From the NCBI GenBank assembly GCA_002786385.1, contig PGCN01000016.1:62001-126000 (forward strand): DNA of 64,000 bases, in the 5' to 3' direction. Of this stretch, positions 50,462-53,153 are shown one piece after another. The notes below the pieces were generated by a model, which was not told the origin of the DNA, searched no databases, and saw only the letters and a list, made by a program, of their open reading frames with translations. This stretch comes from Flavobacterium sp. FEMGT703F. Its GTDB lineage: Bacteria > Bacteroidota > Bacteroidia > Flavobacteriales > Flavobacteriaceae. The translations under genes were made by a program, and so were the position numbers. Position 1 is the stretch's first letter; every line of letters begins with the position of its first letter.

Positions 50462-50516
50462 GACTTCTTAGATTTTTTGACTTCTTAGAAAGTAAGAATT
50501 ATAGATCTAAGAAGTC
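50462..50516. repeat. Inverted repeat after the barrel gene
   Basis: GACTTCTTAGAT at 50462-50473 pairs perfectly with ATCTAAGAAGTC at 50505-50516; a second direct copy, GACTTCTTAGA, at 50479-50489 can pair with the same arm. It lacks a T run, so it is better called a repeat than a terminator. Confidence 0.6.
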
Positions 50517-50546: not shown

Positions 50547-50990
50547 GTGAAACAACAAATCCTCCAATCCTACAAGCAATTAGTTCAAGACCGTATTGAT
50601 GTTTTCCAAGACATGATTTCCGGTTTGACTGATGACGCACAAAACGATGCCAAAGGTTCCGCAGGCGACAAACACGAAACGGCTTTGTCGATGATGCATT
50701 TGGAACAAGAAAAACTCAACCATAAGTTGCAGGAAGTTCTAGCCCAAAAAGCCGTATTGGATAAAATTGATGCCTCAGTTGTGCATCAAAAAGTGGCTTT
50801 AGGCAGTTTGGTACAAACCAATGGCCTGTGGTTGTTTGTTAGTACCGCTTTGCCTAAAATAACGCTAAACGATAAAACTGTTTTTGCGATTTCTCCTCAG
50901 TCGCCTTTAGGTACAGTTTTGATGGGGAATGGTATTGGCTATACTGCGGAAATTAATGGGAAAGAATATGTTGTTGAAGCTTTAGTTTGA
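50547..50990 (+). CDS. GreA/GreB C-terminal-like protein with coiled-coil N-terminus
   Basis: A 147-residue protein starting at GTG 50547. Residues 1-80 form a helical, coiled-coil-like segment. The C-terminal domain (about 82-147) carries ISPQSPLGTVLMG at 115-127, the FKBP-fold signature of GreA/GreB. Gre factors enter the RNA polymerase secondary channel to restart backtracked transcription; related proteins of this type compete for it. The acidic tip (TDDAQND at 28-34) is only loosely like GreA. Such proteins are sometimes mislabelled 3-oxoacyl-ACP synthase. It overlaps the convergent glycosyltransferase by 9 bp. Confidence 0.7.
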   Translation: MKQQILQSYKQLVQDRIDVFQDMISGLTDDAQNDAKGSAGDKHETALSMMHLEQEKLNHKLQEVLAQKAVLDKIDASVVHQKVALGSLVQTNGLWLFVSTALPKITLNDKTVFAISPQSPLGTVLMGNGIGYTAEINGKEYVVEALV

Positions 50991-52412
50991 TTTTTCCATA
51001 AGTACTATAAAAACACCTGCTTTTTTAAATTCTTGAATAGTTCTGTAGTTCTTCATCATTTCATCATAAACGGTATCATCTATATTAAATATGTTCGAAT
51101 AAAGGATATACCTGCTATTGTTGCCCGGTGTGTAATTGTCAAAAAATCTCTTATCGTTATTTAAGTCAATATCATCCAGAGCGTAATAATTTGGGAAAAA
51201 AGTATCTACATCTTTGAAGTTTATTTTTTGTGAATCCAAATAATTCAATGCTTTTGTTCTGAGTTGGTAATATGGCAAATGCGCTAAAGTTGAATCCCAT
51301 CCTTTAGATATTTTCGGTGGATAAATCCATAAATTACCACTTAAACTAATTAACAACCAAATGGCAGCCAAACTATTTTTTATTTTGTTAGGAACATAAC
51401 TTGAGAAAGTGAGCGTAGCTGTTAAAAGTGAAAAAGTGATGTAAATGGGTAATAGATAACGGTGTCCCATTAAATTTTTTGCCCAGAGCATGTTAAGTGG
51501 TAGTAATATTAAAATGATGATAAAGCTTAAAAGAAGCACTTGCCGTTGCTTATCGTTTAGAATATTTTTTTTGAATTTTAAAAAGATAATAAAGCATACA
51601 ATCCAAACTCCAATTCTGCCAAAATCAATTAAACGCCAGCCCAACAGTCCGATATTGAAAAGGAATCCATTTATATCGGTTCTCTCAAAGCAATCAGCCC
51701 AAGGTGAATCTTTGTGATAGCCAATCCATCCTTTTTCGTGAAAATGATAAATGCTGAAACAGATAAAGAGTGTTAATGCAGGAAGGTAAAGTAACGAACG
51801 TTTCAATAGTTTTTTAATATTATCAAATGACATTAAATTTTTAAAGCTGTAATTGACGTAAATATCGATTATCATCAGACAAAGTGATAACATCATTCCT
51901 CTCATGCTTGTCAAAAACAAACCTAGAACACCAATAACTATTAATTCCTTTTTATTTCTGAATACAGCGTTTAAAGTCAGTAAAAAGAAAAACATCAACG
52001 GAACGTCAGGTGAAACTAATGTGATTTGACTCATTAAACTGGCATCAACAAAAATTAAAAGTAAAGCAATACCGCTATATTTTTCGACGATGAATTGTTT
52101 ACACAAATTATTCAACTGCCAAACAATCCCAATAGCAAATGGCAACATAGCCAAGTGACTTGCTTCAACTGTTCTTCCGAATGCCTTCCAAATCAGAGCA
52201 ATATACATTCCGAAAGTCGGAATATGACCGCTATCCAATTCAATTGGTAAAAGTAAATTGGAAAAGTTATTACTGTAATAGTAATTTCCATGTTGAGATG
52301 CCAATTGAATGGTGTCCCAAAAAAAGCCATTGTTCCTGTTTGTGACAACCAATAGAAAAGCTATCAGTAGTGTCAGATAAAAGAATAGTTGGTTTTTAAG
52401 TTTATAATTCAT
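50982..52412 (-). CDS. GT-C-like membrane glycosyltransferase (ArnT/PMT type)
   Basis: A 476-residue protein with about 11 predicted helices. The first loop has FFWDTIQLASQHGNYYY, the acidic residue expected in polyprenol-phosphate-sugar glycosyltransferases, and the SPDVPLMFFFLLTL segment is a second hallmark. A C-terminal soluble part (about 375-476) lies outside the membrane. With the adjoining GT2 it could form a two-step system that loads a sugar on polyprenol phosphate and transfers it across the membrane. It abuts that GT2 without a gap. Confidence 0.72.
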   Translation of the reverse strand: MNYKLKNQLFFYLTLLIAFLLVVTNRNNGFFWDTIQLASQHGNYYYSNNFSNLLLPIELDSGHIPTFGMYIALIWKAFGRTVEASHLAMLPFAIGIVWQLNNLCKQFIVEKYSGIALLLIFVDASLMSQITLVSPDVPLMFFFLLTLNAVFRNKKELIVIGVLGLFLTSMRGMMLSLCLMIIDIYVNYSFKNLMSFDNIKKLLKRSLLYLPALTLFICFSIYHFHEKGWIGYHKDSPWADCFERTDINGFLFNIGLLGWRLIDFGRIGVWIVCFIIFLKFKKNILNDKQRQVLLLSFIIILILLPLNMLWAKNLMGHRYLLPIYITFSLLTATLTFSSYVPNKIKNSLAAIWLLISLSGNLWIYPPKISKGWDSTLAHLPYYQLRTKALNYLDSQKINFKDVDTFFPNYYALDDIDLNNDKRFFDNYTPGNNSRYILYSNIFNIDDTVYDEMMKNYRTIQEFKKAGVFIVLMEKSN

Positions 52413-53153
52413 CTATCTGAATAATCTTGATTGGTAGATTTTGGTTTTGCTTAAAAAATAAGTTACCGCTACGGTCATAACCCCTAATCCGTATTTTAAA
52501 CTTCTCGAAAAATTAATCGATGAAGCATCTTCAAAATATTTAGTAGGGCAAGTGATTTCCGCAATTTCAAATCCTTTGTGAAATATTTGGGCGATGAATT
52601 GATTGTCGAAAATAAAATCATTCGAGTTTTTGTTGAAATCAATTTGTTCCAATACTGCTCGGGAATAAGCACGATAACCCGTGTGGTATTCCGATAATTT
52701 TTGATTCATCAAGATGTTTTGAAATAAAGTCAGAAATCGATTGGCTACGTATTTATACAAAGGCATTCCGCCTTTCAAAGCGCCTTTGCCTAAAATTCTG
52801 GAACCAATTACCACCGGATAAACCTCGTTGGCTATCAAATAACTCATAGAGTGAATTAGCTTGGGTGTATATTGATAATCCGGATGGAGCATGATGATTA
52901 TATCGCCGCCAATTTCCAATGCCTTGTTGTAACAACTTTTTTGATTGCCACCATAACCTAAGTTTTTTTCGTGCAAAATGATATGGTTGATTCCTAATTC
53001 TTTGGCGATATCTTGAGTATTGTCACTACTGTTGTCATCCACCAATATCACATCATCCACAATATCAAAAGGAATTTCGAGGTAAGTATCGGATAATGTT
53101 TTACCGGCATTGTATGCGGGAAGTACTACAATGATTTTTTTCTGGTTAATCAT
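52413..53153 (-). CDS. Polyprenol-phosphate glycosyltransferase (DPM1-like GT2)
   Basis: A 246-residue GT2. VVLPAYNAGKTL and DDNSSDNTQ are the nucleotide-binding segments, and IIMLHPDYQYTP carries an aspartate near the usual D-x-D metal position. A C-terminal hydrophobic helix (near 220-240) follows RSLKYGLGVMTVAVTYFL. Such enzymes charge dolichyl or undecaprenyl phosphate with a sugar. It heads the pair with the GT-C gene at 50982. The 205 bp upstream (53154-53358) is AT-rich, with the asnB promoter at its end. Confidence 0.82.
   Translation of the reverse strand: MINQKKIIVVLPAYNAGKTLSDTYLEIPFDIVDDVILVDDNSSDNTQDIAKELGINHIILHEKNLGYGGNQKSCYNKALEIGGDIIIMLHPDYQYTPKLIHSMSYLIANEVYPVVIGSRILGKGALKGGMPLYKYVANRFLTLFQNILMNQKLSEYHTGYRAYSRAVLEQIDFNKNSNDFIFDNQFIAQIFHKGFEIAEITCPTKYFEDASSINFSRSLKYGLGVMTVAVTYFLSKTKIYQSRLFR

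Follow-up and report, generated by a model that had tools for sequence, protein, structure and literature searches.

Secondary-channel factors of RNA polymerase have mostly been studied in Escherichia coli, Thermus, and mycobacteria. The Asn and Tyr of the Gre tip (N45 and Y48 in E. coli) are said to bind backtracked RNA. The acidic residues D41 and E44 of E. coli GreA are reported, in the available text of PMC7527559, to interact with active-site magnesium. In Mycobacterium tuberculosis, the accessible sections of PMC3132773 describe Rv3788 as keeping the acids of MtbGre without its Asn47 and Tyr50 and as having no cleavage activity, and they attribute this inactivity to the absent Asn and Tyr equivalents. 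According to the part of PMC4598747 that is accessible, Rv3788 blocks nucleotide addition and is a competitor of GreA. The excerpts of PMC3132773 further present the acidic Glu of MtbGre as dispensable for cleavage (E46R is active), so a retained Glu is weak evidence either way. Among the titles and abstract openings of the papers listed by searches for Gre paralogues in Bacteroidota, we noticed nothing on the protein described here.

The window, i.e. the whole stretch of DNA analysed, comprises 64,000 nucleotides of Flavobacterium sp. FEMGT703F (assembly of 2,984,251 bases in 26 contigs). A sequence-only reading had placed a Gre-like protein with a coiled-coil arm at 50547-50990, and these coordinates are correct: open reading frame analysis gives a GTG start at 50547, where three relatives (L003, L004, and L007) have ATG, a stop ending at 50990, and a product of 147 amino acids. 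The features are as follows.

50547..50990, plus strand: coding sequence of a divergent Gre-family protein, 147 amino acids (open reading frame, matches in relatives, fold match to Gfh1, GreA, and GreB)
50550..50657, plus strand: helix 1 of the predicted coiled-coil arm, residues 2-37 (DSSP on the AlphaFold2 model, pLDDT 87.7)
50643..50714, plus strand: tip, the most conserved stretch, residues 33-56, holding D41 and E44 (conservation analysis)
50667..50762, plus strand: helix 2 of the predicted coiled-coil arm, residues 41-72 (DSSP on the AlphaFold2 model)
50802..50987, plus strand: C-terminal beta domain, residues 86-147, presumed to dock on RNA polymerase (model and profile comparison; docking by analogy with GreA)
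50889..50912, plus strand: ISPQSPLG signature, residues 115-122 (profile comparison with GreA)

Fold and family together make it well supported that the window protein is a member of a Gre subfamily spread through Bacteroidota, even though single-sequence profile scores are low. Pfam GreA_GreB matches residues 114-139 with 17.4 bits, below its cut-off of 26.9, and NCBIfam greA gives 17.3 bits against a cut-off of 139. A whole-protein search of 60 genomes found 48 matches, distributed over 44 genomes with the source genome included, none of the matches with inner stops, which rules out a decayed or chance open reading frame. In a PF01272 search of the same 60 genomes only 15 of these 48 sequences appear (five above the cut-off, two of which pass Pfam only with neighbours in the same frame, and ten below it), and the other 33 are absent from the hits at E 0.001. 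A profile of the subfamily (A2) has matches in 103 of 395 Bacteroidota genomes; the best hit is below 1e-15 in 77, own genome included and some being paralogues that have lost the tip, and lies between 9e-4 and 5e-7 in 26. The hits inspected in six of these 26 genomes were all canonical GreA, so that the profile itself ties the subfamily to GreA. Likewise, profile-profile comparison of the subfamily with canonical GreA gave a P of 1.5e-6 and a probability of 90, with the C-terminal signature as the main contributor: ISPQSPLG aligned to ISVTSPIG of canonical GreA, bearing out its earlier recognition as a Gre signature, and S119 is the counterpart of E. coli GreA S124. Another profile (A1) had no match among PDB chains up to E 10, and phmmer ranked Gfh1 first with an E of 0.54, which is not significant alone. 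In a quick tree of 57 rows, with several long branches and an arbitrary root, the subfamily and the tip-lost paralogues were split with an SH-aLRT of 99 from GreA, GreB, and short Gre-like proteins; the tip-lost state requires two changes on it. Such proteins had also been suspected of frequent misannotation; databases presumably name the Gre-like protein 3-oxoacyl-ACP synthase, and a literature search on misannotation of such proteins returned no match.

The AlphaFold2 model (pLDDT 87.7, pTM 0.78, alignment of 30 sequences) predicts the long N-terminal coiled coil and C-terminal globular domain of a Gre factor, with helices of 36 and 32 residues (2-37 and 41-72), strands from residue 88, and an arm equal in length to that of GreA in the models. 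The first seven Foldseek hits were Gfh1 three times (3aoh, 3aoi, and 2eul; E 2e-4 to 6e-4), a GreA model, a GreA/Gfh1 chimera, Rnk (3bmb, 0.014), and GreB (0.021), with only the three Gfh1 entries below 0.001. VIA-align superposed 137 residues on Gfh1 (rmsd 3.2) with a Z of 11.6, below the 13 advised for long helices, and 135 residues on E. coli GreA 1grj with a Z of 9.8 and an rmsd of 4.1. Since unrelated coiled coils reach a similar Z of 10 to 10.8 through the arm only (70-80 residues), the Gre hits are set apart by full-length coverage only. The sequence-only reading had proposed structure prediction as a check and the lack of a Gre fold match as evidence against it; the matches found, to Gfh1, GreA, and GreB, are full-length. 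The helix break falls at residues 38-40, just before D41-E44, compared with 40-46, holding GDLSE, in a control model of GreA from the same genome, which is a weaker model (pLDDT 80.4, pTM 0.45).

Thermus Gfh1 is thus the best full-length structural match, and both proteins have an acidic coiled-coil tip. However, identity is only about 15-17%, and the aligned stretch of Gfh1 is Asp-rich (DDY..DDSG) and has no GDKHET, whereas the tip of the window protein reads SAGDKHET and is not Asp-rich. GreA and GreB of E. coli and the GreA of the own genome share the two-domain fold, the Asp and Glu of the tip, and the SPxxSP signature, but they carry GDLxENAEYxA where the window protein has GDKHETALSM, and they lie on the other side of the SH-aLRT 99 branch. 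Rnk of E. coli can be ruled out as an identity because the arm of the window protein is too long, that of Rnk being short according to the available portion of PMC4598747. DksA and TraR have a four-cysteine zinc finger, while the window protein contains no cysteine, hence no zinc finger, and gives no such Pfam hit, which rules out DksA itself. A DksA/TraR-type initiation regulator, altering open-complex stability at selected promoters, would agree with a shape and an acidic tip that are common to secondary-channel factors (PMC4598747, in the sections available). This is nevertheless quite improbable given the missing zinc finger and a genome that already encodes one DksA/TraR-type zinc-finger protein.

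The tip of the protein, NDAKGSAGDKHETALSMMH, is its most conserved stretch and has a motif of its own, K-S-x-A-G-D-K-H-E-T. The 48 family sequences came from the whole-protein search unselected for the motif, and 42 remained after thinning at 90% identity with tip-lost rows kept. Across these 42, mean entropy of residues 33-56 was 0.98 bits compared with 1.79 overall, the lowest of any 24-residue window, and none of 20,000 random sets of 24 columns was as low. We analysed conservation on three sets, one with 80 loci found by tip peptides (and therefore biased), one of GDK-holding rows, and one of the 48 unselected sequences; the tip was the lowest-entropy window on all three, with a smaller margin on the later sets. 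Canonical GreA tips are nearly invariant (0.01 bits versus 0.66 overall in 15 thinned rows), so conservation at the tip is in itself typical of Gre proteins. Such strong conservation among relatives suggests that the gene encodes probably a regulator of transcription and is not decayed.

The poor match to the catalytic tip that had been noted from the sequence therefore needs qualification: GDLxENAEY is indeed absent, but GDKHE occupies residues 40-44, the position of GDLKE in E. coli GreA, in the most conserved stretch of the protein. Asp41 and Glu44 share their residue numbers with D41 and E44 of E. coli GreA, although the register is not unique, with hhalign (-glob, -mact 0) placing GD..E on GD..E and MAFFT L-INS-i disagreeing. 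GDKHET occurs in 38 of the 48 sequences, GDK[HFY]ET in 42, and GDK in 44; after thinning, D41 is kept in 39 of 42, E44 in 37, and T45 in 40. At position 48 the family has Ser, Ala, Glu, or Lys and never Tyr (0/42), and the window protein has Thr and Ser in place of N45 and Y48. These data could be read as a genuine transcript cleavage factor that has diverged, in which D41 and E44 would hold the second magnesium and K-H-T would replace the Asn and Tyr gripping backtracked RNA. The common numbering of the acids, an arm as long as that of GreA, and a tip that is, as in canonical GreA, the most constrained stretch fit this reading, and retention of both acids is equally expected of a cleavage factor. 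We consider it rather unlikely, however, since the absence of Asn and Tyr equivalents is what the consulted text of PMC3132773 offers as the cause of Rv3788 inactivity, and all 60 genomes already hold a PF01272 protein above the cut-off, the 30 inspected carrying GDLSENAEY. The source genome also encodes a canonical GreA.

Several relatives of the same clade have a tip without GDK (L041, L043, L044, L045, L190, L191, and L192; it is missing in 4 of the 48 family sequences), and L190 and L192 have a common acidic stretch, DPEDFSHQ, in its place. One orthologue (L064:6001-6465) carries an insertion within the tip, GDKHDPSDSELAKQTALSMMH. Relatives also hold other PF01272 proteins (L196-L204), seven with a short N-terminal part and a Rnk-like build, while L197 and L198 (about 170 amino acids) have a long N-terminal part and no GDxxEN tip. 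The replacement of the whole GreA tip motif, and a GDK motif that is wholly missing in some paralogues, might be taken to mean that this protein, though derived from Gre, has ceased to act on RNA polymerase and uses its tip to bind another target. This appears very improbable, as P120 of the SPxxSP signature is kept in 42 of 42 thinned sequences and S119 in 33, and most retain the GD..E spacing.

Synteny within the genus argues for a chromosomal, vertically inherited gene. Among 80 loci found by tip peptides, some of them cut short, an outer-membrane-type gene lies upstream on the same strand in 77, within 300 bases in 55 of these. Where the downstream sequence spans 1.5 kb or more (73 loci), an asnB homologue starts less than 1 kb away in 47. 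In a subset of loci with flanks of about 1.5 kb, every locus of the genus had the upstream gene (29 of 29 close and 4 of 4 diverged ones), and none of the 10 order-level loci had it. A phage or plasmid origin was rejected on this synteny, the lack of a match in the phage collection, and only two weak plasmid matches, one of which falls under a gene annotated as GreA/GreB family elongation factor. The neighbourhood of the loci compared revealed no partner gene marking a function. In the window, a hairpin (50462-50516, fold z -3.27) separates the Gre-like gene from the outer-membrane-type gene and contains GACTTCTTAGA twice, followed by TCTAAGAAGTC; the 11-mer occurs three times in the window, always at this hairpin, a possible terminator or repeated palindrome. 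Further, two minus-strand genes (50982-53153), one encoding a 476-residue protein that has no Pfam hit and the other a glycosyltransferase, separate the Gre-like gene from asnB, and with matches in only 1 and 2 of the 80 loci the pair looks like a local insertion.

What role, then, might this protein play? To a secondary-channel modulator or inhibitor, rather than a standard cleavage factor, we give about even chances, by analogy with Rv3788, which shows the same retention of acids and absence of Asn and Tyr together with no cleavage and with inhibition. Modulation or inhibition would be likeliest because Thr and Ser stand in for N45 and Y48 and the tip has its own KSxAGDKHET motif. Rv3788 belongs to another phylum and is likened to the window protein by its published description (PMC3132773, as far as accessible), not by sequence. 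The C-terminal domain would dock on the polymerase at the secondary-channel rim, with the coiled-coil arm extending to the active site, where the two acids, D41 and E44, could either interact with the catalytic magnesium or push the trigger loop aside. The protein may thereby modulate or inhibit the polymerase in competition with the cell's GreA, like Rv3788 and Gfh1, the direction of this effect being presumptive. The earlier idea of a secondary-channel regulator holds as the best reading of a non-standard factor with a full-length Gre fold, its binding to the polymerase being putative; the more specific suggestion of an anti-Gre or stress factor is hypothetical. The predicted fold, the family, the conservation of the tip, and the separate GreA are directly supported, while we infer binding and insertion.

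As a tentative proposal, the subfamily may represent a class of secondary-channel regulators mostly confined to Bacteroidota, with a KSxAGDKHET tip that acts at the active site of RNA polymerase through a chemistry unlike that of GreA, Gfh1, or DksA, and with paralogue tips that changed at least twice. Secondary-channel factors influence transcription fidelity, pausing, and initiation, and an extra factor common in Bacteroidota, with a different and strongly conserved tip, would make it possible to probe directly which residues of the tip distinguish a cleaving from an inhibiting factor.
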